From contig CANHDJ010000001.1 in the NCBI GenBank assembly GCA_947459425.1, forward strand, positions 82,103 through 146,102: a DNA stretch of 64,000 nt, written 5' to 3'. This document shows positions 45,250 through 60,805 of the stretch, piece by piece. A model generated the notes under the pieces. It made no database searches, was not told the DNA's origin, and was given only the letters and a program-made list of their open reading frames with translations. This DNA is from Ignavibacteria bacterium (lineage in GTDB: Bacteria > Bacteroidota > Ignavibacteria > Kapaibacteriales > UBA4661). Every line of letters starts with the position of its first letter. Position 1 is the first letter of the stretch. Both the position numbers and the translations under genes were made by a program.

Positions 45250-47382
45250 CTATGGCACAATAATTCGCACATTGTCAATCGTCCAACGCGGACGAACTTG
45301 TAAATCGGTCGGAAAAACAATAAAACGCTCGGCTGGCGAGTAGGGAAATACCGAACCATAATCATAACGACCATTTCCATTCGCATCAACAAATGCTGTT
45401 AGACGATATGATCCTGGTGGCACAGTACTCAGTTCCCATGCGCCGGGCTTTGCAAGACGCAATTCAAATCGTTGCTGCGCAAAGGGCGAAGGTGGTTGTG
45501 TGGGTGTTGAAGCGGGAGATTGGCTGGGCGGCGTTGAAGTTGCTGATTGAGGCGAAGGTGTGCTGTTCGCAGAAGCGCTTTGCGTCAAGAGGGGTGCAGT
45601 TTCCAACACAATGACGAACTGCCCGCCTGTGGAGCGCGTTGCCATCGTAGAGCGTACCAGTGTGGAGCGTGTCAGATTGATGGCGCTCGGCATTGTGGCG
45701 GATGTCGTGCTGATAGTTGCTTGAGTGGCAGTATTTTTTTTGAATACGCCGACACTAGCTATTGTGGAAGGAATGACAACGGAATCTGCTATTGTACCCG
45801 AAATACCGCCATAATCCCGTGCATCCTCTGTTTGGAAACGCAGCAAAACAACGGAATCACGCAATGACCTCCCATCCCACGCTTGTAGGCTTTGAGTCCG
45901 AAAACCGAGCGTGTACCAAGCATTCGGCGCAAGCGCTGTGCGCGGCTCCAGCATGAGCCTGTTATGAGGCGCAAGCGAAGCAGCAAAATCTACTGCTTTC
46001 CCTGAGGCAGACTCCCAGACTATACCACTGGCGCTTGCCGTCGTTACACTCAGCGCTAGTGCTTCCGAGAAGGTAAAGGAAATACGCGGCTTTTGCGGCA
46101 CGTTGCGGACACTATCGGCAAGCACAGGAGCCATAAACGGCGAAAGCGCTCCTGCCGTCAAGATTTGTGTGCGCAAGAGCATTGGAAGAGTGCTATCGGC
46201 AATCGTTGCTTCATTGGATATTTTCCAGAAAGCCGTGTTTGTGCTGTCGGCAATAGTATTTCCGGCTGAATCCCGCACCGCAATAGCTTTTAAGCGCCAT
46301 GTTGACGATTGCTGCTGTGCGCTTGATGGCAACGGTTTATCGGTATAACAGCGAATCACGGCGGGGTTGTTTCCGTCGGGATGCAAGGCGATAATGCGCG
46401 GCAACTCGCTTCCGGCAAGGGTTTCCAAAGAATCTCGGAGTGTGAAATTATCCGATCGCAGCGATGCAGGATGAATTTTTTCACTAAACCGCACCGACAG
46501 GCGTTGTGCCGAAATCTGGCGCACCTCATAGATACGGGGCGGGGCAACATCTTCCACGGGAGCCATTTTTATCAACATTTCTGCCGTGCCGCCCTCTGGC
46601 AACCAAATATCGCTAACAGCGGTGCTGAAGGCATCTACGCCCTTATCCAAAAGGTCATTGCGATATTCATCACGCAACACAAAGAGACGGTATGCTCCGG
46701 CAGCTAAGGCGGGAAATTCAAGAGTTTTATTGGAGCCGATCTGCGTTTTGTATTTGGGTTTCGTCGTACCGGGATTGAGCGTGTCGGGTCTTGTCGTCAA
46801 AGGGTAGAGAAACGCCGTAAGTCCGTCGGGTTTGTCGGTATCAACGCGGGCGCGAATTGTCCCGCTATCAAGTTTGCTACCAGTTGAAAAAATGAGTGTG
46901 TACGCAGCTTCCGGCTTATTGCCGTCCCAATCGCTATACTGCGTCCCAAGCGTCAGTGCCACCGTCGTATTGGAATCGAGCGGCTCCTTGAAATTCACAT
47001 AGACAGTTTTTCCCGACCAGAAGTATTCGGTCTTGATGGGCGGTGTGAGAAAAAGGCTCTGATGCACCTGATTTCGCTGCTGAATGAATTTATTGAACTC
47101 AAGGGCAATATATTGGGGATGAGCATTTAACGCTCGTTGTAAAGGCTCTGTGGCTATAATTGCCGGAGGGGTTTTGTCGGGTTTGCCCCCGCTTGGCGCG
47201 ACGGCATTGGCACAGGCGTTGAGAAACAGGCTCGAAATAAGAAAAATGGCAAGAATAACGCCACCGTTACCAAAGGCACGACCACCATCATCTGTGCAAT
47301 AAAAGCCAGATTGTACGCCCGTGCGCAGAAACAATGCCGTCAAATCTTGTTGATTCACAATATTCACCGACCTATTTTTCAA
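45250..47382 (-). CDS. Ig-like (Big_5-type) domain lipoprotein with Pro/Ser/Thr-rich linker
   Basis: LISSLFLNACANAVAPSGGKPDKTPPAIIATEPLQRALNAHPQYIALEFNKFIQ...; linker STPSPQSATSTPPSQSPASTPTQPPSP. Confidence 0.8.
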   Translation of the reverse strand: MKNRSVNIVNQQDLTALFLRTGVQSGFYCTDDGGRAFGNGGVILAIFLISSLFLNACANAVAPSGGKPDKTPPAIIATEPLQRALNAHPQYIALEFNKFIQQRNQVHQSLFLTPPIKTEYFWSGKTVYVNFKEPLDSNTTVALTLGTQYSDWDGNKPEAAYTLIFSTGSKLDSGTIRARVDTDKPDGLTAFLYPLTTRPDTLNPGTTKPKYKTQIGSNKTLEFPALAAGAYRLFVLRDEYRNDLLDKGVDAFSTAVSDIWLPEGGTAEMLIKMAPVEDVAPPRIYEVRQISAQRLSVRFSEKIHPASLRSDNFTLRDSLETLAGSELPRIIALHPDGNNPAVIRCYTDKPLPSSAQQQSSTWRLKAIAVRDSAGNTIADSTNTAFWKISNEATIADSTLPMLLRTQILTAGALSPFMAPVLADSVRNVPQKPRISFTFSEALALSVTTASASGIVWESASGKAVDFAASLAPHNRLMLEPRTALAPNAWYTLGFRTQSLQAWDGRSLRDSVVLLRFQTEDARDYGGISGTIADSVVIPSTIASVGVFKKNTATQATISTTSATMPSAINLTRSTLVRSTMATRSTGGQFVIVLETAPLLTQSASANSTPSPQSATSTPPSQSPASTPTQPPSPFAQQRFELRLAKPGAWELSTVPPGSYRLTAFVDANGNGRYDYGSVFPYSPAERFIVFPTDLQVRPRWTIDNVRIIVP

Positions 47383-50300
47383 CAGTTATCAAGACAGATT
47401 CCCGTTCACCAGACGGCGTTGTCAGCACAACACCATAGACACCGCTTGGAATGGACTTGAGAGAGATGGTAAGTGTGGAAGCCTCGTTGGGACTGCTCTG
47501 TGCGTTATTCTGCTTCCAGTCTTGCGCAAGAAGGCGGTTTCCAAGCATAGTGACGATTTGCACCGAATACGTGCCGTTTTGCCCCAAAAGCGCTTGTATG
47601 CTCAATTCTTCGCGCACGGGGGTTGGATAAACGGCTATGAGCCTTGTACTTTTGCGCGTAATGGCGTTATTCGGCAAGCGCGGTGTGTTGTTTGCGCCTT
47701 GCAAAACAACATTCATCACAAGCAAGCCGTTGCCAAAGTTTCCCGCCTCGACCTGATACACACTGTCGCGTCGCCCCCAGCGCGTTTGCGTATGCACCCA
47801 TTCCACAGCACTGCGCATGGTGTCGGTCAAAATCGGCGTTCCGCCAATCGTTGCAATCACGGTAGGAGTGTTTGTCAAACGCACATTCGGCACGGTCATC
47901 ACAAAAAAGCGGTCAAGGCTATCGGCGCGGTTAGAATCAAGCGTCGGAGTACCAAACGGCGACGAGAGTGCCTGAGAGCGCGGATAGAACATACCACGCT
48001 GCACCCGCAGTGCTGCACGGAAACTATCAGAACGGTCAATGGCAGCGCCAAGCACTTGCCCCCACACACGAATACTCGTATCGCGGAGCATATTCACACT
48101 CCGCAAGGTATCAAGCCATATCCGGGCTTGCATGGCGATTGGTCCCGTTGGTGTGCCGAGAAGGGGGATACTGTCGGGCTTGAGTGTGCATGGTGCGGCA
48201 ATATTTGTATAACTCAAACGCAGTATTTCTGGCACTGGCACATCGGGCATTTGCGCATCGCTTGGCAAAAGTTCAATAACGATGGAATCACGTGCGCCGG
48301 GAGCCAGTTGCAATAAGCGTTGAGCAGGCTGCACAATGCGATATGGCGCACGAAGAGCGGCAATATTCACCGTCACGGGCGTATTGCCAGTATTCGTTAT
48401 TTGTACAGCGCGTGTGACGGCATTAAAGAAACGTACTGCTCCAAAGCGCACCATATCTTGCGGCACAATGTTCACACGGGCAAAATTGCTCTGCACCTCA
48501 AGAAGAATCGGGATACGCCGCGTCCGCGCTTCAGGACGTGCGTCATTGGTCGTAATGATAACCGTATCGCGGTAAGCCGTGGTCGCTTGGGTACTTGGCG
48601 AAGCTGTGAATCGCACTTGGACTTGCTGCTCATTATTCGGCATCATCGTAAACATCGTTGGCGACAAAACAAAGAAGGAAGCGGTGCTTGCCATGCGGAC
48701 GCTGACGGTTAAAAGGCTGTTTCCGGCACTCGCAATTTTGAATTGCGCTCGTGCCGTAGCGGTGTCGGGGAAGCATATCGGGGCAATCGTCCCAAAACGA
48801 ATAAGGCTGTCCGTATTGGGAATATCCAACTGCGGACGTGTTCCTACGCCCGTGAGCGTAAATTGATAGGAAGCGGTATCGCTGGCGCATATTCCCACGC
48901 CTTGCACACGGACAATCGCTGTCTGCGGCGCAGCAGCGCCTTGTGCTGTTGGCTGAAAGCGAATTCGTACTTGAATGCTATCGGACGTAAGAGAGCGCTC
49001 GGCAAAAATAAATGGTGCCGAAGCAATCGGTGAACGAGCGCTCACTGCATAGCGCACCGCATCACGGCTGGCGTTACGAATTGTTATGACGGTATCACGA
49101 CTGCTGCCAATGGCAACATCACCGAAATCAATAGAATTACTATTAACATCGGGTTGGAGATTAAAAAGAATCGTTTTTAAGGGCGCTTGGAGAGCAATAT
49201 TGATGGGATTAGGGCGCGAACCTTCGCCAACGTCGGGAATGGTGTCATTGTGAAAAATCTGCAAGGTCGTGCGCAATACCAAGCTATCAGCAGGAATAGC
49301 CGCCGTTGCAATGAAACGCAGTCTAACCATGATGGAATCGCCCTTTTTCGGAATAAATCTCGGGCGGTCAACCGTATCCATGCGGAAATATGGACTCAGA
49401 ACGCGCACACTATCAATACGCAACGTACCGCCACGCCTGTTATAAATTTTCACTATTCCCTCCATAGTGCGTGTCTCCAAGCCACAACGCTCTAAGGTCG
49501 GAAAAACAAAATTCTGCCCAGCAGCAACACTCGTTTCAATAAATGGCAAAGGAACGACGCGCACCATGTTCGTACCAGACTGCGACATTATCCACTCGGG
49601 AACAAATTCTTTGTCTCTTGGATTGGGCATAAAGGAGCGTTGTACGGTAACGATAAAAAGCAATGAATCCTGGTCAGCCCGTGGGCGCGTGGTAATGGGA
49701 GTAAAAGAATTATCATTGGGGACACGCGAATTAAAGCCAGTTCCCGGGGGTTCGGTTCCCGGGTCACCTAATTGTACGGAGTCTCCTTTTTGCTCCCAAC
49801 GCCCAGTTAATGTCCGCCGAAAAAAGCGAATCCCGCCTGATGCTCCGCCATACCCATTCAATGGCACAGGTATCGTGTAAGGGCTAACCGCCTCCGTTTT
49901 TGGATCAAGTGTAATGCCCGTATAAGACCGCGATAATGCATCATTCTCTAAAGGAACGATACTCGTATCAGTCTCACTGCCGATACGATTTGGCGTATCG
50001 TAGCGTATGCGGCCCGCACCAGAATATATGCTCCTTGCAAAATCACCACCCAAAACATTGATACGAATATTCCCCGCTCTCGTCCGCGAATGAACCGCGA
50101 TATGCCCACCAGAACCTGCGCCACCATTGACGGGCGGTCCACCAATAATTGGCACTGGATTTCCACGTACCCCCAATGCACCACGCGCCTCGATAGTCAA
50201 ATTCGTAAGCGTACTTGCTGAAATGCGAAGAGCGCCGCCGCCGCCGCCGCCCTCGCCACTACAGCCACCTTGCGGATTACCGCTTGCGCCACCTGAGCCT

Positions 50301-51601
50301 CCGGCAATAGGCATTACGGGGTCGTTTCCATGCCGTTGTCCGCCAGAAAAACCATTCAAAGCCTGAGAATATCCTGTTGTACCGAAACCAGCACCATCTC
50401 CAGCTATTCTATTCAAACGACCAACACCACCCCCAGCACTTTCAGCGACAGTCTGGTCAGCAGCATTTCTTGCATCATAATAACCCGAAGTACCGAATGG
50501 ATGCCCCGTACCACCGCCACTTGCTTCGGGGTTATCTTGGATAGAACCGCGCGAGGTGCCGCCAATGACATCATTGAGCGAATTTCCGCCCGTTGTTTTC
50601 AAGACATTAGGATTTTGTGCAAGAACTGGTGTCTGGGGTGTAAACGCATTTACCCCTGTTCCTTTGCCACTCAAAAAAGACCATTGCTGTTCGCGTGGTG
50701 CAGTAGAATTATTCTGCCCTCCAGCAGCCCCACCTGTAAAGCCATTACCGCCGACCATGCCCGGAGGATCTGAAGAACCAATATCGCACACACGCCCGCC
50801 CCCGCCCCCGCCGCCAGCCCCACCATGCTTGCCGACAGCATTTGCAGAAAGTATTGCGCCACCACCATCAATAGTGCCTACTGCCAGCATGACAAACGGC
50901 AAAAAACCTTGATTTCCATCAGTCACGGCATCGCAATCCACGGTTGAGACGACATAGCGGCGCGTCGTATTACCGCCACCTCTGCCTTCGAGAGTCAGGT
51001 TATTCACGACAAGTGCACCACGCCTTGAACGCACGGATTGTGGCTCGCCGTCTGGTCCGCGAATTTCACCTATCATGATGGAATCGGGGTTATTATTAGT
51101 TGTGCGTGTTATTTGTGAAGCATCGGTATATGGCTGCACAATGTAGAGTGTATCGGCATTGGACACGGAATCCGCCCGACCGCTGACCACGACGCGAAGA
51201 GGAATACGAAACTCAGCAGTAAGATTATTCCAATACTGTGCATTGGGGCGCACATTCGGCAGGACAAAAACTTGAGTAGAAATTAGACGACCATTCCACG
51301 AAACAATGACAGGACCAATCACGACTTTCGTTGAGTCAGCAGGGCGGACAAGTTCAACCCGGACCGCATCATTCGGGTTGTTGAGGTACAAACCATCCTT
51401 ACCAAAGGCGGTTGTATCCCATGTTGCAGCAAAAAACTCAACATACACGCTCATATTGGGAGCGCAAACATCGGGAAGAATGTATTTGATTTCCGGGGGT
51501 TGTTGCTGTGCATCTGCTTCTTTCGGAAGAGCAAAAAACATACTCCACAGCAATCCATAGACGATAAGTTGACGACGACGCATAAAAGAGAACATATTCA
51601 T
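47372..51601 (-). CDS. Giant secreted surface protein: glycine-rich domain, ASH/HYDIN-like repeats, T9SS-like C-terminal domain
   Basis: Gly-rich block (GGAGGGGGGGRVCDIG...GGCSGEGGGGGGALRISASTLTNLTIEARG), IDFGDVAIGSSRDTVITIRNASRD, C-terminus VYPTPVREELSIQALLGQNGTYSVQIVTMLGNRLLAQ...IPSGVYGVVLTTPSGERESVLITVEK. Confidence 0.82.
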   Translation of the reverse strand: MNMFSFMRRRQLIVYGLLWSMFFALPKEADAQQQPPEIKYILPDVCAPNMSVYVEFFAATWDTTAFGKDGLYLNNPNDAVRVELVRPADSTKVVIGPVIVSWNGRLISTQVFVLPNVRPNAQYWNNLTAEFRIPLRVVVSGRADSVSNADTLYIVQPYTDASQITRTTNNNPDSIMIGEIRGPDGEPQSVRSRRGALVVNNLTLEGRGGGNTTRRYVVSTVDCDAVTDGNQGFLPFVMLAVGTIDGGGAILSANAVGKHGGAGGGGGGGRVCDIGSSDPPGMVGGNGFTGGAAGGQNNSTAPREQQWSFLSGKGTGVNAFTPQTPVLAQNPNVLKTTGGNSLNDVIGGTSRGSIQDNPEASGGGTGHPFGTSGYYDARNAADQTVAESAGGGVGRLNRIAGDGAGFGTTGYSQALNGFSGGQRHGNDPVMPIAGGSGGASGNPQGGCSGEGGGGGGALRISASTLTNLTIEARGALGVRGNPVPIIGGPPVNGGAGSGGHIAVHSRTRAGNIRINVLGGDFARSIYSGAGRIRYDTPNRIGSETDTSIVPLENDALSRSYTGITLDPKTEAVSPYTIPVPLNGYGGASGGIRFFRRTLTGRWEQKGDSVQLGDPGTEPPGTGFNSRVPNDNSFTPITTRPRADQDSLLFIVTVQRSFMPNPRDKEFVPEWIMSQSGTNMVRVVPLPFIETSVAAGQNFVFPTLERCGLETRTMEGIVKIYNRRGGTLRIDSVRVLSPYFRMDTVDRPRFIPKKGDSIMVRLRFIATAAIPADSLVLRTTLQIFHNDTIPDVGEGSRPNPINIALQAPLKTILFNLQPDVNSNSIDFGDVAIGSSRDTVITIRNASRDAVRYAVSARSPIASAPFIFAERSLTSDSIQVRIRFQPTAQGAAAPQTAIVRVQGVGICASDTASYQFTLTGVGTRPQLDIPNTDSLIRFGTIAPICFPDTATARAQFKIASAGNSLLTVSVRMASTASFFVLSPTMFTMMPNNEQQVQVRFTASPSTQATTAYRDTVIITTNDARPEARTRRIPILLEVQSNFARVNIVPQDMVRFGAVRFFNAVTRAVQITNTGNTPVTVNIAALRAPYRIVQPAQRLLQLAPGARDSIVIELLPSDAQMPDVPVPEILRLSYTNIAAPCTLKPDSIPLLGTPTGPIAMQARIWLDTLRSVNMLRDTSIRVWGQVLGAAIDRSDSFRAALRVQRGMFYPRSQALSSPFGTPTLDSNRADSLDRFFVMTVPNVRLTNTPTVIATIGGTPILTDTMRSAVEWVHTQTRWGRRDSVYQVEAGNFGNGLLVMNVVLQGANNTPRLPNNAITRKSTRLIAVYPTPVREELSIQALLGQNGTYSVQIVTMLGNRLLAQDWKQNNAQSSPNEASTLTISLKSIPSGVYGVVLTTPSGERESVLITVEK

Positions 51602-51630
51602 AGCCTACACTTTGACGGTATTTTTCGGCA

Positions 51631-53280
51631 TTATTTTTCAAGGATCACAATTTCTGTTCGACGGTTTAAACGCCGTCCGGTATCGGTATCATTCGTAGCA
51701 ATTGGGCGCGATTTGCCAAACCCAAGCGTATGAATGCGATGTGCCGCCACGCGGCGCTGTATCAGATACGCCTTCACCGCCTCTGCGCGTTGGAGCGACA
51801 AACGCAGGTTATATTCCGCGCTACCAACCCCGTCGGTATGCCCTTCGACACGGATGACAACTGTTTTGCGATTCGTCATAAACTCTGCGATTCTCTCAAG
51901 TTGCGGCTGGAAGGTAACAACGGGAATAGATTGATTTGTTGCGAAAAGTAAATCCTCAATAATCAATTTACGACCTATTTGGAGAATAGGTATTGTTCGC
52001 CGCACCAGTTCTAAATTGCGGTCATTGACAATAGCAACATTGATAGAATCTGGTATTGCCGGCTCTTCTGAGCGGTAGGTGATAGCGTACATATTTGCCA
52101 AGGTGCTGGAATAATTATCAAGAATTGTTCCGAAGGGCTTGGTAATATCGAAGGTGGCGGCGCGAGTGGCATCAGCAATTTTTTCGTATTGCTTAAAGAC
52201 CGACTTCGTAATAGGAACAATTTTCATTTCACGAGCTTTTGCCGAATCAATAATGCTTTGCGTTGTAAAGGTTGTTGTCCCATCGCCGTCTTCACCTTTT
52301 TGATGATAAGGCGCATCGGTAATGAGCAAAGCCATTTTGCTGGCGGCAGGGCGAAATTTCAGTTTCATTGCGGCGTTGAGTGCTTCAAGAGCATTCTCTT
52401 TTTCGTCTTTTCCGCCTTTTGCTTGAGCGCTGGAAAGCCACCAGAGAAACTCTTGAACATCGCTTGTAGGCTGGCGGACAACCTCAACCGAGTCGGAGTA
52501 TGTTACCAGACCTAGGCGAAAATCAATACCCTTTGCAAGCAGATTTTTTGCGAATTTGTCAACATTTGCTCGGACAGCATTGATGTAATCACCCATTGTT
52601 GCCGTCACATCCAGAACAAAGACAAAGTCAATGGGAATACGCTTATCGGCAGAGATCTTTTTGACGGAAATTACTTGACGACGTTTGCCATTTTCCACAA
52701 CGGCAAGTTTTTGTTGCTCCAGTGTCGCAAATGCCGCACTATCGGCAGTTGTTGCCTCAACAATCAATCCAACCTCAGGAAAGCGCGTAATATCAACGTT
52801 TTGGATAAATAGTTTTAGGCGGTCGTCAATAGATTCAATTTTTGCACCTTTCTGAACGCCTTGTAAAATGCCCTCGCGCTTGATAGAATCAGCCGCTTCT
52901 ATCTCCCGTCGAAAAAGATTGGGCGGCAAACCTGAATTGCCTGTGCTGACGCGAGGTGTGGTCGTTTTGGGCGCAACACTTGTTGCTGTGGTGCTTTGAG
53001 CTGGTTTGGGTTTCGTCGAGAGTTTGACTGCGCCCGTTTGTACAGGTTTTATTGTCTTGCTTCGACTTGGTAAGATAGGAGAAACTTTCTGCCTTGGAAG
53101 AGGCGGGTTCGCCATTTTTCTAGGAGCAGATGAATTTACCGTCGTATCGCTTACTGATGCTTTTTTAGGTTGTCCCCAGACCATCTGAGTTTGCAAACAT
53201 ATACTTAAAAATACGAATGAAACGATTACGGTATATCTCATTGTTGCCCAAGTATTGTGATTCATCAAAATCTCCATCAA
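51631..53280 (-). CDS. von Willebrand factor A domain + OmpA C-terminal peptidoglycan-binding domain protein
   Basis: IDFVFVLDVTATMGDYINAVRANVDKFAKNLL (VWA); VVIRVEGHTDGVGSAEYNLRLSLQRAEAVKAYLIQRRVAAHRIHTLGFGKSRPIATNDTDTGRRLNRRTEIVI (OmpA). Confidence 0.9.
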   Translation of the reverse strand: MMEILMNHNTWATMRYTVIVSFVFLSICLQTQMVWGQPKKASVSDTTVNSSAPRKMANPPLPRQKVSPILPSRSKTIKPVQTGAVKLSTKPKPAQSTTATSVAPKTTTPRVSTGNSGLPPNLFRREIEAADSIKREGILQGVQKGAKIESIDDRLKLFIQNVDITRFPEVGLIVEATTADSAAFATLEQQKLAVVENGKRRQVISVKKISADKRIPIDFVFVLDVTATMGDYINAVRANVDKFAKNLLAKGIDFRLGLVTYSDSVEVVRQPTSDVQEFLWWLSSAQAKGGKDEKENALEALNAAMKLKFRPAASKMALLITDAPYHQKGEDGDGTTTFTTQSIIDSAKAREMKIVPITKSVFKQYEKIADATRAATFDITKPFGTILDNYSSTLANMYAITYRSEEPAIPDSINVAIVNDRNLELVRRTIPILQIGRKLIIEDLLFATNQSIPVVTFQPQLERIAEFMTNRKTVVIRVEGHTDGVGSAEYNLRLSLQRAEAVKAYLIQRRVAAHRIHTLGFGKSRPIATNDTDTGRRLNRRTEIVILEK

Positions 53281-53396
53281 AATAGAAAGCCCTATGCAGG
53301 TACATTATCTGCAAGGGGCTTTCAAAAATACGGTTCTCTTTCCAGAAAAACAACGTTAATACAAACGCTTATTTTTCCTGTGATTTTCTGCCAAAA

Positions 53397-54983
53397 TTAA
53401 CGTGGTATCAAAACGCGGAATACCGGCGATATCATAAAGTATGCTTGCTGCTCATATGGACGAACCTCTCTTAAAACATGAGCGTATTTTGCTTCCACGT
53501 AAAGCCAGTTGCCGAAAATTGGCAGATACGCAGTACCTAAGAGAATTTGATTGGAGTATTGAAAGCTAAAACCAAAGGGGTATGACGTTTCATTACGGTA
53601 TTCAAATTTTATGAAGAGCCAATCAAGAACACTTTGCGGCCTGTAATTGATAAGCCCGCGTCCGTCACGACTAAGAGGACCCACGCTACTAGGTGTTGCA
53701 AAATATACTGGACCAAATTGCCCGCCAGTTTGTACCAGTGCAGTCTCCGTAACTTCTGAATAATTGATACCAGCATCAACACGGAAGATATTGTCTGGTG
53801 GGTTTTCTGCTCCTTCTACCTCTAACCACCACGTATAGAAGAGGGTTGCCTGAGCAACCGTTCTTAAAAGAGGGGTAATTGTCTGAACATCTATGCCGCT
53901 AGCTTTGCGCTGAGTAATAAACTGGGGCTGCTCACCAAAGCGTGGATGTGACGAAAGAAGTTGGAGACGTTCATTAGAAGGAATCCTGTTATCGCTGTCG
54001 AAATTCACCCGTGAGAAACTCAAAGGTTCAGCCAGTGGGACAGATTGGTTGATGCTCTGAATAGGCTGCTCAAGATTGATTCTTGCGCCTATAACGCTCG
54101 TTTTATTATCCTCACCCAAAGGCAACACACCTTCAAAACTTACGGCAATTTTGGGTTCAGGTCCCATATTCAGCCGACGCTTACCCAAAAAGTCAATAAA
54201 ACGTGGGTTCTGATTGCCCGCATCATCATTAAGACGATAGACAACGCCACCGCTTAATTTCAGAAGGTTAGGAACAACACGACGGGTGTTATTGTCGTAG
54301 TTATCAATAAGTGGGCGCATTGCGGTAATTTTTGCTTCACCGGCATACCAGAAATGATACCCCATGTTATCATTTCCAATGGTGTTATGAATCCACCAAT
54401 TTGTCGAACCAACGCGGAGCATCTGATCAAAGACGGAAAGCGAATAATATTGACGACCGCCGGTAGGCATACGGAAGTTATTCTCGCCGACACCAACTTT
54501 CTTCTCAATTTCATTAGTAACTTTTCCGCCGACATTTGAGACAGCAACAAAATCATGGCAATACTTCTCTTCACCTTCCGCGCCAACAGGCTCTGCAATA
54601 AGGTCTTTGACACCTTGAAGCATAAGCTCGTCAATTTCTTTTTTCACGATAATCGCACTACCGCATTTAATTTGGTAGAGTTCATATTTACCATTTTTTT
54701 TCGGTTCACCCCAGATTGATATTTTTGCCAAATCGGGTCCTGGCTCTCGTCCAGCCGTCTTAAACTGCTGTTGGATAATTTTTTGAACTTGTGCCTCGCA
54801 GACTGTCCAGCGGCTAAGAAACGGTAAAGCCCTGTCATCAATGTTCTTAAAAGCATTGGGAATACCGCCAGGATTAGTAGTGTCTGGAGTTGCAGGTGCA
54901 GCCGACGAGCCTTGTCCAAAAAGAGGAGATATACTCGACACGACAAGCACACAGGCGCTGAGAACCAGAGAGTATCGTTTCAT
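53397..54983 (-). CDS. Predicted outer-membrane beta-barrel protein, unknown family
   Basis: Signal peptide ending SISPLFGQ; alternating amphipathic strands in C-terminal half; terminal aromatic-rich segment YFMISPVFRVLIPR. Confidence 0.6.
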   Translation of the reverse strand: MKRYSLVLSACVLVVSSISPLFGQGSSAAPATPDTTNPGGIPNAFKNIDDRALPFLSRWTVCEAQVQKIIQQQFKTAGREPGPDLAKISIWGEPKKNGKYELYQIKCGSAIIVKKEIDELMLQGVKDLIAEPVGAEGEEKYCHDFVAVSNVGGKVTNEIEKKVGVGENNFRMPTGGRQYYSLSVFDQMLRVGSTNWWIHNTIGNDNMGYHFWYAGEAKITAMRPLIDNYDNNTRRVVPNLLKLSGGVVYRLNDDAGNQNPRFIDFLGKRRLNMGPEPKIAVSFEGVLPLGEDNKTSVIGARINLEQPIQSINQSVPLAEPLSFSRVNFDSDNRIPSNERLQLLSSHPRFGEQPQFITQRKASGIDVQTITPLLRTVAQATLFYTWWLEVEGAENPPDNIFRVDAGINYSEVTETALVQTGGQFGPVYFATPSSVGPLSRDGRGLINYRPQSVLDWLFIKFEYRNETSYPFGFSFQYSNQILLGTAYLPIFGNWLYVEAKYAHVLREVRPYEQQAYFMISPVFRVLIPR

Positions 54984-55182
54984 AGTGCTTACGCTGAAAA
55001 TCGTAAAGTAAAGAATGTTCTAACAGTTAGAAAAAACCAATATGTCAGATTTTTGTGATATAACATTGCCGGAAATAGCAACGAGAAGAAGACAGAAAAA
55101 GAGCATCACTTTTTATGCCATTGTAAGAGGACGATAAACATCTTTGACGAAATGAACAGTAACTGCCGATATTGATAGACTA

Positions 55183-56928
55183 TTACGGTCCCCATCGGAA
55201 GATAAAGCGCAAGGAAGGAAGTGCTACCAAAGAAGACTCCCATTCGTATGGAGCGCGTGCGATTGGCAAAAATATACGTCCATCAAGACGAATAGCAGTT
55301 AAAAAGCCCGTATCGCTAATAGGCACTTGTATCCATCCCATACCCGAACCTGCTCCATCAAAGTATTGAAGATATGCGCCAAATGGTACGGAAAGTCCAT
55401 ACGACATATACTCAATACGAAAGAATGGGTTAAATATCAATTTTGAAGTTCTATCTGTGCCAGGAACGAAATCGGCACCCAATGACTGCGGAACCCACTG
55501 CTCCATTTGATAGCCAGCAGCACCAATTTTAAAGCGGAGATTGTATCCTAAATTTTCCTTGTCAGGATCGTTAATGCCGATAGAAAAAGTGTAATTGACC
55601 AAAGCGTGCCAGCGCATCAGAAAACTTTTACGAAGGCGCATCTCATCGGGAATACCAGTTTCTAACGGATTAACAAATGGACCTCTGTCATTATAGCGAA
55701 TCCCATTACCAAGCATAAAAGAGCCAGAGGCATTGAATACACCACTTCTCTCAATTAACTTAAAGGGAAAGTCAAAATTAAAATTCAGTCCAACGCTATT
55801 GGTTAGGGTCGTAAATCGGCTTGGCAATGTTAAAATAGGAAGAATATTCGGTGCCCAAAGCGCTGTGGGCAAAATAACCCCAAGTTTATTGGCATCCCAA
55901 AGCGCATTGATAGCGACGCGCTCACTCCAAAGGGAAGGATAACCAATATCATCATTCCCGAACCGCATCTCTACGCCATATTGAGGAAGATTTGTTGGTT
56001 CGCCTTGTACATCGGCAGGATTTTGATAATGCCGCCAGCTAATCAAATCAGCTGCACCAATAACAATTTCATCGCTGAATGTTTTATCACCTTCAATAGC
56101 TTTATGCGGCTCACCTTCGGTGATCATAAGATATTCATTAACCTTATCTTCGCCAATCATCTTGGTAACGACTTCTTTATTGATCTTCATGGCAACACTC
56201 TGCGTGGGGCGAATAGCGGAGGTTTTTTCAGCAGGATTCTGCTTAATCATTCCTTTGAGATATTCGTACATATTTTCTGCGCCCGTGCCTTCGATTGACC
56301 CTTTGACAGCAATCATAGACCCTGTGGAATCATCCTTCTCAAATTCCTTAGTTTTGAATTGGCGCAAATCATTTGCATCAAGGACAGCACTAGCAATTGG
56401 TCCGTTCAGAGCATTTTTCAAAAAGTCTGGGTCGGCAGCCTGCTGTTGAGTAGGTGCCTGAATCCCCATAACACCGAGAATGACCGGATCATTGCCGTCG
56501 GTATAGCGCTCACACAAGACATAGACTTTACCAATACGAATAAGACCAGCCAATGCCGTATAATAATTTTTCACTGTCTCGCAATCCGCCGGGCTACCGC
56601 CTTCATCAATCATTGTTTGCGGTACGGGTTGTTTCTTTTGAACCCGCTTTTTAATATCATCGGTATTAGTACACTCTTGCTCCGCTGTCTCTAATGCTGG
56701 TGTTCGAGGATAGCCTGGCGTAATAGACTCGCTCAAACGCTTCACGGCTGAGGCATCCGCCTCATACAGTGAAATGTTTGAATATTTGTAATAATCCATC
56801 TTCCGCAAGAATGCTTTGGTTAATTCTTGTGATTGTAGCTGGCTACCACAAGCTATGAGTATCACCAGAAACGCAGCAGCACACGAGTACAACGATATGT
56901 AACGACGATGAAAGGCATTTGTATGCAT
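55183..56928 (-). CDS. Predicted outer-membrane protein, unknown family
   Basis: N-terminal hydrophobic signal (AAAFLVILIACGSQLQS), barrel-like C-terminal half ending ESSLVALPSLRFIFRWGP. Confidence 0.58.
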   Translation of the reverse strand: MHTNAFHRRYISLYSCAAAFLVILIACGSQLQSQELTKAFLRKMDYYKYSNISLYEADASAVKRLSESITPGYPRTPALETAEQECTNTDDIKKRVQKKQPVPQTMIDEGGSPADCETVKNYYTALAGLIRIGKVYVLCERYTDGNDPVILGVMGIQAPTQQQAADPDFLKNALNGPIASAVLDANDLRQFKTKEFEKDDSTGSMIAVKGSIEGTGAENMYEYLKGMIKQNPAEKTSAIRPTQSVAMKINKEVVTKMIGEDKVNEYLMITEGEPHKAIEGDKTFSDEIVIGAADLISWRHYQNPADVQGEPTNLPQYGVEMRFGNDDIGYPSLWSERVAINALWDANKLGVILPTALWAPNILPILTLPSRFTTLTNSVGLNFNFDFPFKLIERSGVFNASGSFMLGNGIRYNDRGPFVNPLETGIPDEMRLRKSFLMRWHALVNYTFSIGINDPDKENLGYNLRFKIGAAGYQMEQWVPQSLGADFVPGTDRTSKLIFNPFFRIEYMSYGLSVPFGAYLQYFDGAGSGMGWIQVPISDTGFLTAIRLDGRIFLPIARAPYEWESSLVALPSLRFIFRWGP

Positions 56929-57024
56929 GATCTATCCTGCCAGAAAAATGTTCAAAGGAAAATGATATGCGAGATATATTTAATTTGCGACGAGACAAAT
57001 AACGATTAGTGAAAGCCTTGAAAT

Positions 57025-59445
57025 TTACTGATAAGGGATATTAACACTAATCACACATGGCGGACTCGTCGAAGTCGCCGATGCACCTGCTTTGCGATTA
57101 ACAATCTTTGCTCCAACTTTAACAGCAATAGTGCCTCGAAGAATACGGCTTTCTGCTGGCGGTTTTGGTGGAAGATCTTTCACCTGAACTGTCACAGGAA
57201 AAGCACCTGAACTTGCATCAAACGACCCGACAATCACACCGAATGTAGTCGCAGTTGCCGTCCAAGTTGATGTTGCGTCTGGCTCGTCACCATTGTATAT
57301 TCTTAGCTGTGTATCAGGGCTATTATAGTCAATTTCAGCATCGCCAGTTGGCTCAACATCGCCAAGTGTAGCTTTCACGCTCTTACTGGCAGCAATATCC
57401 TTATTATCTGCATCAAGTGGAACTTCAAAATCTACGCCAATACCTTTAATGACGACCTGAAAATTATTCGGTTGAACTGGTTTCTTTCCCGATGCCTTCC
57501 TGCCACCCTTGGCTTCGACAGCACCACTCGACTTTAGCTCAGTAATAGCATTTGAGCAAGAAATTTCAGGCGGAGTCTGTTCAGGGGTTGCCTCTCGTGT
57601 AAAGAGTGGAACGCGCTCTCCTGTCGGTGGATAGACCCAGACAATATCTGTTTTCACTTTTTTCGCTCCAGCAGGAATGTTGGGACCTACCCATGATTCC
57701 GAATAAGCATTATCTTGATTTTTCTTTTCATTACCAAGTTGATAATCAATTTTGAATTGCTGCAACGGCAATTCCGCCTCGGCTAACAAGCGACTTCTCA
57801 ATGCTAGTCGCTTCCCATAATAATACTTTGCACCAGCAAGACCTTTCATACTCTTCGGATCAAGACTGCTTGGCAATACTTTCAAATCCGTCGAAGCTGT
57901 ATCGGTCTTACCTCCACCACTATAGCTTAGTTTGATATTATACAAGCCTGCGGGAATTGGGCTTTCAAAAACAAGCCTATACCGACGCTTTTTGTTATTC
58001 GCTTGCGGATCAGCTGGTGCGCCGCTCGTAGCAGCTTCATCCAACTCTATCTTATATTTACCCGCAAGGGATGGTGTACCCTTAATATCCACAGTAGGAT
58101 TGCCTGGCTTAAAGTATGCTCCAGGCGTTAAGGCAAATGTGACGATGGTTTTCTGAAGTTTATCGAAAATAATAATTTTCGGGTCAAGCTCGCTGATACT
58201 TGGCGCTGGCTGCTGCTGTTCGGGCTTACGAACCTGAACGTCAATGTCCATGGTACCGCTATTCTGGTCAAGGAATGACGAAAAACCTGGCGTTATCAGT
58301 TTAACAATATAATCGTACAATGTAATCTTGTTAAGGATTTCCTCGTTATCCTTATTGTTTTCTCGACCAAGTTTTATTGCCTGATTAAACTCTTCTACTG
58401 CCTTGAAACGCACGTTAAAATCGCCTTCACCATCGTACCACTTATCACGAAGTTCGACTTTACCATCAAGCTCCTTCTGTAATTCACGCATTACCGAACG
58501 CAATGCCCTGACCTTCAATTTAACAACACCAACATTTACTTGGTCTTCATCACTAATGTCTTTTAAACCACCCTCAAAATCCACGCCAAGAATTTTATTG
58601 GTGCTAGAAAAGAAGCGCAACTTATACCAACCATCTTTACGTTCATCACCCGGATCAAAATTTACAGTAAAGGTACGCGAGATTACTTTTCCATTATTGG
58701 CAATATCCTTTTCTGACTTGGTACTATCATAGAAGAATATAGTATCTCTTGCTTGTGTAGATTTATCAACAGGAACAGCATTGTTGACAAGATTATACAA
58801 CGGCTTTCGCCAGCCGCCTTCAGCTTTGTTATATTCGTATGTTTCAGCAACATTCAGTTTTAACTGGCGATTATCAAGCAATGTCCAGTTAAAATTCCGC
58901 CCTGCTTGTGCGTCATTGTATGACGCAACGTCTCCCGTTTTAAATTCACGTAGTCGTTTGCTATTGTAGGTACTATCGGGCAAGCGTGGAGCATTTTCTT
59001 GAGTTTCGCCTTTGGGGGTTTCTGTAAAAAACAACTGATAGGTCAATTCTTGCACATTTGCCAATTTAGTAAAGGTATAGTCTTTCAACCCATCAGCCGC
59101 TGCCTCACCACCGCCTTCTCCGCCTGGCTTTGCTTCGCTAATATCCGTTACCCCAACCTTGACACTATACGTCTTTTGACGCTTAATTCGCTGGTCTTTG
59201 GGCAAAGACTCTACGGTAGCCTTGTCCTGTATAATAATCAAATCATTCGGGGCAACATTCATATTGAAGTTACCCGAACCGCTTTGTAATTGTGAAAGGA
59301 TATTCTGCACAATCTTCATAGACTCTTTCGTCTTTTTGTGCAGACCTTCTTCAGCTTCATCGCGTTCAACGATAATGATGAGAAGTTCCAAGATTACGGC
59401 GAGATACAACACAAAATATACCTTGCCAGCACTGCCTTTCGACAT
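57025..59445 (-). CDS. Large single-TM envelope protein, GldM/PorM-like by architecture only
   Basis: Start set at MSKGSAGKVYFVLYLAVILELLIIIVERDEAEEGLHKKTKESMKIVQNILSQLQSG: one N-terminal TM, then ~770 aa of Ig-like extracytoplasmic sequence. No canonical GldM N-terminal motif. Confidence 0.6.
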   Translation of the reverse strand: MSKGSAGKVYFVLYLAVILELLIIIVERDEAEEGLHKKTKESMKIVQNILSQLQSGSGNFNMNVAPNDLIIIQDKATVESLPKDQRIKRQKTYSVKVGVTDISEAKPGGEGGGEAAADGLKDYTFTKLANVQELTYQLFFTETPKGETQENAPRLPDSTYNSKRLREFKTGDVASYNDAQAGRNFNWTLLDNRQLKLNVAETYEYNKAEGGWRKPLYNLVNNAVPVDKSTQARDTIFFYDSTKSEKDIANNGKVISRTFTVNFDPGDERKDGWYKLRFFSSTNKILGVDFEGGLKDISDEDQVNVGVVKLKVRALRSVMRELQKELDGKVELRDKWYDGEGDFNVRFKAVEEFNQAIKLGRENNKDNEEILNKITLYDYIVKLITPGFSSFLDQNSGTMDIDVQVRKPEQQQPAPSISELDPKIIIFDKLQKTIVTFALTPGAYFKPGNPTVDIKGTPSLAGKYKIELDEAATSGAPADPQANNKKRRYRLVFESPIPAGLYNIKLSYSGGGKTDTASTDLKVLPSSLDPKSMKGLAGAKYYYGKRLALRSRLLAEAELPLQQFKIDYQLGNEKKNQDNAYSESWVGPNIPAGAKKVKTDIVWVYPPTGERVPLFTREATPEQTPPEISCSNAITELKSSGAVEAKGGRKASGKKPVQPNNFQVVIKGIGVDFEVPLDADNKDIAASKSVKATLGDVEPTGDAEIDYNSPDTQLRIYNGDEPDATSTWTATATTFGVIVGSFDASSGAFPVTVQVKDLPPKPPAESRILRGTIAVKVGAKIVNRKAGASATSTSPPCVISVNIPYQ

Positions 59446-59636
59446 AAACTTCGACCAATAAGAGTTCTGAAAATTGTGAGTTTCGGAAGAGATGCAAAGC
59501 GCTTGTTTGCTTGCCCCACTACCAATATGCAAAAATCATAATACAAAACAAAAAATTTGTCATTTTCCACAAAAAGGGGAAAATTTTCTCGGAAGCCGAT
59601 AAAATCACGATACTCATTCGCTCTTAAACAGGCGAA

Positions 59637-59669
59637 AAAGCCTTACCTTTTTGTCAAAGGTAAGGCTTT
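59637..59669 (-). terminator. Terminator hairpin for the LRR gene
   Basis: aaagccttaccttt-ttgtc-aaaggtaaggcttt, perfect 14-bp stem; T-tract on the minus strand. Confidence 0.85.
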
Positions 59670-59698: not shown

Positions 59699-60805
59699 CT
59701 ATTTCTTAGTATCAGCATCAACAGATGCTTTGCGTGGTAGTTTTCGTAGTTTTGCTCTAAATTCTGCATCATCTTTTATTGGGTTGTCCGTTACTTTCAG
59801 TTTTTTCAACTTCTCCCATTTGTCGATTGTCGCTGGAATAGTTGTGAGTCGATTGCTACTAATATTGACTCGCTCGATATTCCGAAGATTCCCAACTTCG
59901 TCTGGCAACTCTTTGAGCAAATTAAACCCCAAATCTAATTCTGTCAGTGCGGTGCAACCACCAAGCTCACTTGGAATTTTCAACAAGCTATTCAAACGAC
60001 AATCAAGCATTTGCAACTGCTTGAGTTTACCAATCTCGGAAGGCAATTCTTTCAACTGGTTATTACTAATATCAATCTGCTCTAAAGCGGGCAGGTTCGT
60101 GATAAAGGTAGGAAACTCCGTGAGATTATTGTCATTGATATAGAGATGACGAAGCGATTTTATCTTTGCGATTGCCGAGGGAATGTATTTTAATCTATTT
60201 CCGCCCAACCCCACTGTTTCCAACTGTGTCAAACTATCAATTCCCACCCAAAGCATCTTCAGTTCCTCGCCTGGATCGGCATCCGGTGGAACTTCGCTGT
60301 CTTCCATTTGATTGTAGTTATTCAAATACAATTTTTTCAGATTCCGCAAATTCATCATTTCTCGCGGCAAACGCTTAATCTTGTTTTTATCTAAAACCAA
60401 GACTTGAAGGTTTGCCAATTTGCCAATCTCTGGCGGTAACGTTGTCAGTAAATTACGGTCAACAGCTAATTCTTGCAGATTCACAAGTTGTCCAATAGAG
60501 GCTGGAAGCGACGTGAGATTATTTTCATCCAAACGCAATTTATAGACTTTATCTGCACGGGGCAGAGCATCAAGCAGCGACGTATAGGTGGGCTGGATCA
60601 GTAATTGGGCTGAATCAAGCAGCGCTCCGGGCTTGAGTTCTGGCGCAACCTTAGCTTGATTCTTTGAAGATGCTTGTACCGAAACCGAGGCACTCGTTGC
60701 GGTGCTAGTAGCCTTACCCGCCTTACTTTTTTTCTGCGCAAATGCACCATTGCTTTGCATCAAGGTCAAGAGACAAACAGTAATCACAGCAAAATAGCGA
60801 TGCAT
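59699..60805 (-). CDS. Secreted leucine-rich-repeat protein
   Basis: Signal peptide MHRYFAVITVCLLTLMQSNGAFAQ; tandem LRRs (LRLDENNLTSLPASIGQLVNLQELAVDRNLLTTLPPEIGKLANLQVLVLDKNKIKRLP...). Confidence 0.93.
   Translation of the reverse strand: MHRYFAVITVCLLTLMQSNGAFAQKKSKAGKATSTATSASVSVQASSKNQAKVAPELKPGALLDSAQLLIQPTYTSLLDALPRADKVYKLRLDENNLTSLPASIGQLVNLQELAVDRNLLTTLPPEIGKLANLQVLVLDKNKIKRLPREMMNLRNLKKLYLNNYNQMEDSEVPPDADPGEELKMLWVGIDSLTQLETVGLGGNRLKYIPSAIAKIKSLRHLYINDNNLTEFPTFITNLPALEQIDISNNQLKELPSEIGKLKQLQMLDCRLNSLLKIPSELGGCTALTELDLGFNLLKELPDEVGNLRNIERVNISSNRLTTIPATIDKWEKLKKLKVTDNPIKDDAEFRAKLRKLPRKASVDADTKK

Follow-up and report, generated by a model that had tools for sequence, protein, structure and literature searches.

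A conserved four-gene envelope block of Kapaibacteriales as a candidate module of a divergent GldLM-type motor

The closest described counterpart of the locus studied here is the GldLM (PorLM) motor of the type IX secretion system (T9SS) of Bacteroidia. In Flavobacterium, the GldL glutamate E49 is essential for secretion (PMC8986121), and in Bacteroidia, disulfide bonds join PorG and SprF to GldK (PMC12635249). In Ignavibacterium and Melioribacter, SprA, PorV, and Plug have been reported, and other T9SS proteins were not found there (PMC11705866). With translocon genes present and the other T9SS proteins missing, the question arises of what powers export outside the Bacteroidia; the papers found on Kapabacteria/Ignavibacteria and the T9SS describe no motor. 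Here, we analyzed a stretch of 64,000 nucleotides (the window) from the 3.4-Mb draft genome (93 contigs, 87% complete) of an Ignavibacteria bacterium of the order Kapaibacteriales, in which positions 45250 to 59445 hold a one-strand block of cell envelope genes. Its first four genes, c0-c2-c1-c3, may form a module of an ion-driven motor of a divergent GldLM type, which would have outer-membrane partners of its own and would most likely energize the T9SS (SprA). We give this reading about as much belief as doubt.

The block is filled by six back-to-back open reading frames (ORFs) on the minus strand. From the c0 start codon (ATG at 59445) onward, they encode c0 (806 residues), c2 (581), c1 (528), c3 (549), and proteins of 1409 and 710 residues (Table 1). 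The gaps in this order measure 96, 199, 116, and 29 bp, and the final pair overlaps by 11 bp. The original prediction had described six consecutive minus-strand genes for a single-transmembrane protein with a large extracytoplasmic part, two outer-membrane proteins of no recognized family, a VWA-OmpA protein, a 1409-residue protein with a T9SS-like tail, and an Ig-like lipoprotein, separated from a leucine-rich repeat (LRR) gene by a terminator. All of these features were recovered, as detailed below.

Neighborhoods of up to 20 kb were compared for loci from ten families (f1 to f10) of the Kapaibacteriales. The genes c0-c2-c1-c3 are collinear at loci of all ten, as well as in one genome of another family of the same class (L117). 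c3 is the third gene after c0 at 11 of 12 loci of f2 to f10; it was not found at L057 (f10) or at the broken f1 locus L046. Homologues of c0 occur in 115 of 123 genomes of the order, the nearest named relatives being metagenome-assembled genomes of Candidatus Kapaibacterium sp. and Ignavibacteria bacterium (71 to 98% identity in c0). The 1409-residue gene comes next at six of seven named same-genus loci, and among the loci compared, both it and the 710-residue gene were seen only within the window's genus. Because c0-c2-c1-c3 is order-wide while genes 5 and 6 are confined to genus level, the conserved, machine-like unit is genes 1 to 4, and genes 5 and 6 are accessories. The initial idea that all six genes form one machine was therefore dropped; the expected conservation of the cluster in relatives holds for genes 1 to 4 in all ten families (c3 was not found in one) but not for genes 5 and 6.

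c0 carries one strong transmembrane (TM) segment at residues 9 to 27. This segment hardly varies among 17 diverse members (KVYFVLYLAVxLELLIxIVERDEAE) and has a Glu about halfway through the span; distant members are overall just 24 to 33% identical to the c0 of the window. The AlphaFold model of c0 (eight close orthologues) has a predicted local distance difference test score (pLDDT) of 45, and at this value no claim of a GldM fold is made. In this weak model, residues 411 to 526 form an Ig-like sandwich (best Z 8.4; root mean square deviation [rmsd], 3.2; 95 residues), giving c0 the single N-terminal TM segment and, tentatively, the Ig-like periplasmic domain expected of a GldLM-type shaft. 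No GldM/PorM entry stands among the listed structural matches of the model, which carries no weight either way. The GldM models TIGR03517 and PF12081 matched nothing in the own genome or the class, the members of the c0 family alignment included, and PDB sequences searched with profiles of the c0 and GldL-like alignments gave no match. Genomes of the window's family each encode several further proteins containing the C-terminal part of c0 (residues ~417 to 805; e.g., G095:C144, G097:C4, and G100:C289), and one genome holds nine matches to c0.

A candidate ring partner emerged from other loci. A further copy of c0, present in the window's family, lies directly after a membrane protein of 425 to 474 residues (c7) that has a GldL-like motif in its C-terminal part. 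Outside the order but within the class, the c7 profile recovers GldL-like proteins of 160 to 355 residues (E values of 2e-8 to 2e-16). In eight of eight class relatives, the GldL-like gene is directly upstream of a protein of 186 to 222 residues with the c0 TM motif, and c2-like barrel genes come next at seven of these eight loci. Aligned over both TM helices, the GldL-like core scored 23.2 against canonical GldL in hhalign, versus a mean of 10.0 (standard deviation, 2.2; maximum, 16.2) for 60 column-shuffled controls; another subset gave an hhalign probability of 80.6%. An Arg and a Glu are invariant in the GldL-like alignment, at a spacing that matches the basic residue of TM1 and the Glu of TM2 in GldL. 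The TM1 spacing, GA[AGS]-x8-[KR], is identical in the two groups, and the TM2 Glu lies at +18 to +22 in GldL, at +20 in loop-less GldL-like proteins, and at +34 to +36 in those with an inserted loop. The GldL-like proteins have no Pfam or NCBIfam GldL match, TIGR03513 being nowhere over its cutoff in the class. A profile of canonical GldL and the divergent GldL of family f31 (A8) found no GldL in the Kapaibacteriales, and c41, near sprA, was rejected as a GldL candidate since it is an HD-domain/CCA-adding fragment. In class relatives L110, L111, L113, and L116, a DUF2254-type membrane protein is encoded just upstream of the GldL-like gene. We infer that a single motor, which would run on an ion gradient, comprises both c0 and the GldL-like protein.

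All 122 order genomes screened carry GldL-like genes, mostly two or three apiece; the own genome (G000) has them at C22:48620 and C5:49632. Distribution was assessed in a sample of 198 genomes, including 49 of the class. Among 33 class genomes from outside the order, c0-type and GldL-like proteins are both found in 10, a GldL-like protein alone in 1, and neither in 22 (Fisher P = 1.2e-7, kinship ignored). SprA is encoded in all 49 sampled genomes of the class (in the own genome at G000:C18, E = 5e-241) and in 154 of the 198 overall. GldK, GldL, and GldM exceed their cutoffs in just 48 of the 198, one identical set lying entirely outside the class. Within the class, none of the three is over its cutoff, and PF12081, TIGR03517, TIGR03513, and TIGR03525 were accordingly discarded as direct identifiers. 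Of the genes sought elsewhere in the genome, sprA and a divergent GldL-like gene were thus located, and canonical GldK, GldL, and GldM were not. A further genomic link to the T9SS is a GldL-like gene of about 450 codons followed by a PorU-like C25 peptidase (Peptidase_C25, E = 1e-61) at 17 of 24 loci in families f2, f4, f5, f6, f7, and f8, and in the window's genus, the fifth gene of the run encodes a T9SS-tailed protein. The block supplies named candidate motor genes for one SprA lineage without canonical GldK, GldL, and GldM.

Outside the class, about 58 Bacteroidota genomes also encode SprA with none of GldK, GldL, and GldM over the cutoff. Judging from these profile searches, T9SS motors are unrecognized in these ~58 genomes and in the 22 SprA-encoding genomes of the class. 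One cluster in family f31 (L128, genome G226) encodes a divergent GldL (242 residues), a GldM-like protein (380), a protein of 311 residues, and a GldK-like protein (661), and is possibly intermediate between canonical and unrecognized motors. In several families (L168 to L170 and L173), a shorter GldL-like protein of about 335 to 345 residues adjoins a STAND/AAA-type ATPase gene, which suggests that the GldL-like ring is also employed in another way.

The putative outer-membrane partners are related to each other. As for c0, searches of Pfam and NCBIfam assigned c2 and c1 to no family; the barrel halves of c1 and c2 are homologous (hhalign, 96.4%), and c2 resembles barrel proteins of the class relatives (hhalign, 85.9%). 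From the c1 model (pLDDT 51), only the barrel at residues 174 to 528 can be used; it matches OmpG (Z 14.0; rmsd, 3.9; 212 residues) as well as FadL-type barrels and chain F of T9SS translocon entries (Z 12 to 13). The periplasmic part of c1 has three conserved Cys residues. TIGR03519 (PorP/SprF) has no match in the own genome, but the control genomes gave none either. Compared with four canonical PorP proteins, c2 and c1 scored at shuffle level or barely above in hhalign; on this basis, homology to PorP, and with it the suggestion of PorP/SprF-type barrels, is not supported. Neither c2 and c1 nor their relatives aligned to GldN, although no search for GldN across the genome was made. In c3, Pfam identifies VWA_4 (E = 9e-13) and OmpA (E = 1.5e-20) domains.

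In the proposed mechanism, the GldL-like ring, encoded elsewhere in the genome, would pass ions at its TM2 Glu, and the ion flow would turn or shift a c0 dimer acting as the shaft. The periplasmic part of c0 would reach and push the c2/c1 barrels, which c3, bound to peptidoglycan, would hold in place. In these putative roles, c2, c1, and c3 would stand in for the GldK/GldN ring, and force on the barrels may free carrier-cargo complexes from SprA. A bolder version, possible yet doubtful, is that the Kapaibacteriales and part of the class have their own T9SS motor line, in which the GldK/GldN track has been replaced by a homologous barrel pair and a VWA-OmpA anchor. If true, this would represent a distinct route for inner-membrane motor force to the outer membrane.

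Several points weigh against a T9SS motor. The window locus itself lacks a GldL gene, and the structure model of c0 is poor. In hhalign, c0 and its short relatives align to GldM no better than shuffles do, with no significant alignment, and homology of c0 to GldM was rejected. The PorU-like matches score under the curated PorU cutoff; in the window's genus, the GldL-like gene has an amidase and a TraB-like gene as neighbors in place of PorU. Among the genomes seen, a single one (L054) has sprA close to the block, and of the 33 other class genomes, 22 encode SprA while lacking both the c0-type and the GldL-like family. What stands of the originally proposed divergent T9SS-associated apparatus is a conserved trans-envelope block with GldM-like architecture and genomic links to T9SS genes. 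A direct relationship in sequence between c0 and GldM is not supported.

The occurrence of SprA without the module in two thirds of the other class genomes means either that a more divergent motor operates there or that the motor serves something else. A GldLM-type motor could drive a process other than the T9SS, such as outer-membrane lipid or protein transport, cell-surface movement, or outer-membrane integrity in a Tol-Pal-like manner, with c3 as a Pal-like anchor. Besides those SprA genomes, the OmpA-type anchor in the block favors this explanation, as do the two or three GldL-like genes per genome of the order, whose contexts differ, one adjoining a STAND-type ATPase. We nevertheless regard it as unlikely, though a serious contender, given that a GldL-like gene adjoins a PorU-like sortase in six families, that no alternative T9SS motor candidate was recognized in these genomes, and that a T9SS cargo gene lies within the same run in the window's genus.

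It is less probable still that the block encodes a static envelope scaffold and no motor, in which the membranes are held to peptidoglycan by an Ig-like spacer with a TM anchor, a pair of barrels, and an OmpA anchor. Such a scaffold would fit the OmpA anchor, the lack of family matches for c0, c2, and c1, and the position of the GldL-like gene outside the operon. However, a near-invariant TM segment with an intramembrane Glu is more than a plain membrane anchor would need, and c0-type TM proteins closely co-occur with and adjoin the two-TM GldL-like protein.

An ordinary adhesin or surface protein operon, grouped only by export of all its products, would suit the genus-specific 1409-residue T9SS-tailed protein and the Big_5 lipoprotein, both ordinary surface types, but collinearity of genes 1 to 4 in ten families and another family of the class, far beyond chance, makes it very improbable overall; it is largely refuted for genes 1 to 4 and stands for genes 5 and 6.

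The tail of the 1409-residue protein passes both cutoffs narrowly (PF18962 Por_Secre_tail, 28.3 versus 27 bits; TIGR04183, 25.4 versus 23), and this neighbor of the four-gene module is probably a T9SS cargo. In the 710-residue protein, the Big_5 domains are preceded by a lipobox-like FLNAC. Upstream of the block, an LRR protein with a signal peptide (window positions 59702 to 60805) is encoded at most same-genus loci, with a terminator between. This terminator is a 15-bp hairpin directly 3' of the LRR gene, missed by a simple consensus scan, and is predicted to isolate the block from upstream transcription.

Table 1. Positions of the block genes and associated elements in the window
Feature	Position	Strand	Basis
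c0, single-TM inner-membrane protein with large periplasmic part; proposed GldM-like shaft	57028..59445	-	ORF; homologues in 115/123 order genomes
c0 TM helix VYFVLYLAVILELLIIIVE	59365..59421	-	Glu near mid-membrane, Glu-Arg-Asp at end; nearly invariant across order
c2, predicted outer-membrane barrel protein with long N-terminal periplasmic region	55186..56928	-	Orthologues in the same gene order in all ten families
c1, outer-membrane barrel (residues ~174-528) with N-terminal periplasmic domain; conserved Cys 62, 107, 142	53400..54983	-	Model, alignment
c3, VWA + OmpA protein; proposed peptidoglycan-bound anchor of outer-membrane complex	51634..53280	-	Pfam
1409-aa secreted surface protein; ASH/choice-of-anchor-D repeats, T9SS type A sorting tail	47375..51601	-	Pfam, NCBIfam
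710-aa Big_5 (Ig-like) lipoprotein; accessory	45253..47382	-	Pfam Big_5 4.4e-21; same-genus loci only
Intrinsic terminator after LRR gene	59637..59669	-	Fold -21.5 kcal/mol, z -5.7
Promoter-like site upstream of c0, ATGACA-17-TATGAT	59535..59563	-	Consensus match only

Compared with known systems, a T9SS motor built from c0 and the GldL-like protein would follow the general plan of TolQR, ExbBD, and MotAB, an ion-driven ring with a single-TM dimer that has a large periplasmic part. It differs from them in that neither the GldL-like family nor c0 has a Pfam match to MotA/TolQ/ExbB (MotA_ExbB) or ExbD/TolR (ExbD). As with PorE, PorP, SprF, and PorG, an OmpA-type peptidoglycan-binding protein and barrels stand beside the putative motor. 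However, c3 matches the PorE model through its OmpA domain alone, and c2 and c1 show no clear similarity to PorP/SprF. The conserved c1 Cys residues recall the disulfide-linked PorG and SprF (PMC12635249), although their pattern differs, and may be taken as a lead, not as evidence. The newly proposed GldK track with disulfide links described there lends itself to comparison with the block. Differences from GldLM/PorLM are the lack of detectable homology between the sequences of c0 and GldM, the length of many GldL-like proteins (320 to 560 residues versus about 200 to 290 for GldL), the separation of the ring and shaft genes in Kapaibacteriales, and an operon that has two barrels and a VWA-OmpA protein instead, with no GldK found. 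Since neither a recognizable GldM nor a GldK partner was obtained, we describe the module as GldLM-like in its presumed working and do not claim membership of the GldLM family. What it shares with GldLM is a two-TM ring protein with equally spaced intramembrane Lys/Arg and Glu residues, a single-TM shaft with an Ig-like periplasmic domain (on a weak model), genomes that encode SprA, and, in the class relatives, a ring-then-shaft gene order that equals the canonical gldL-gldM order.

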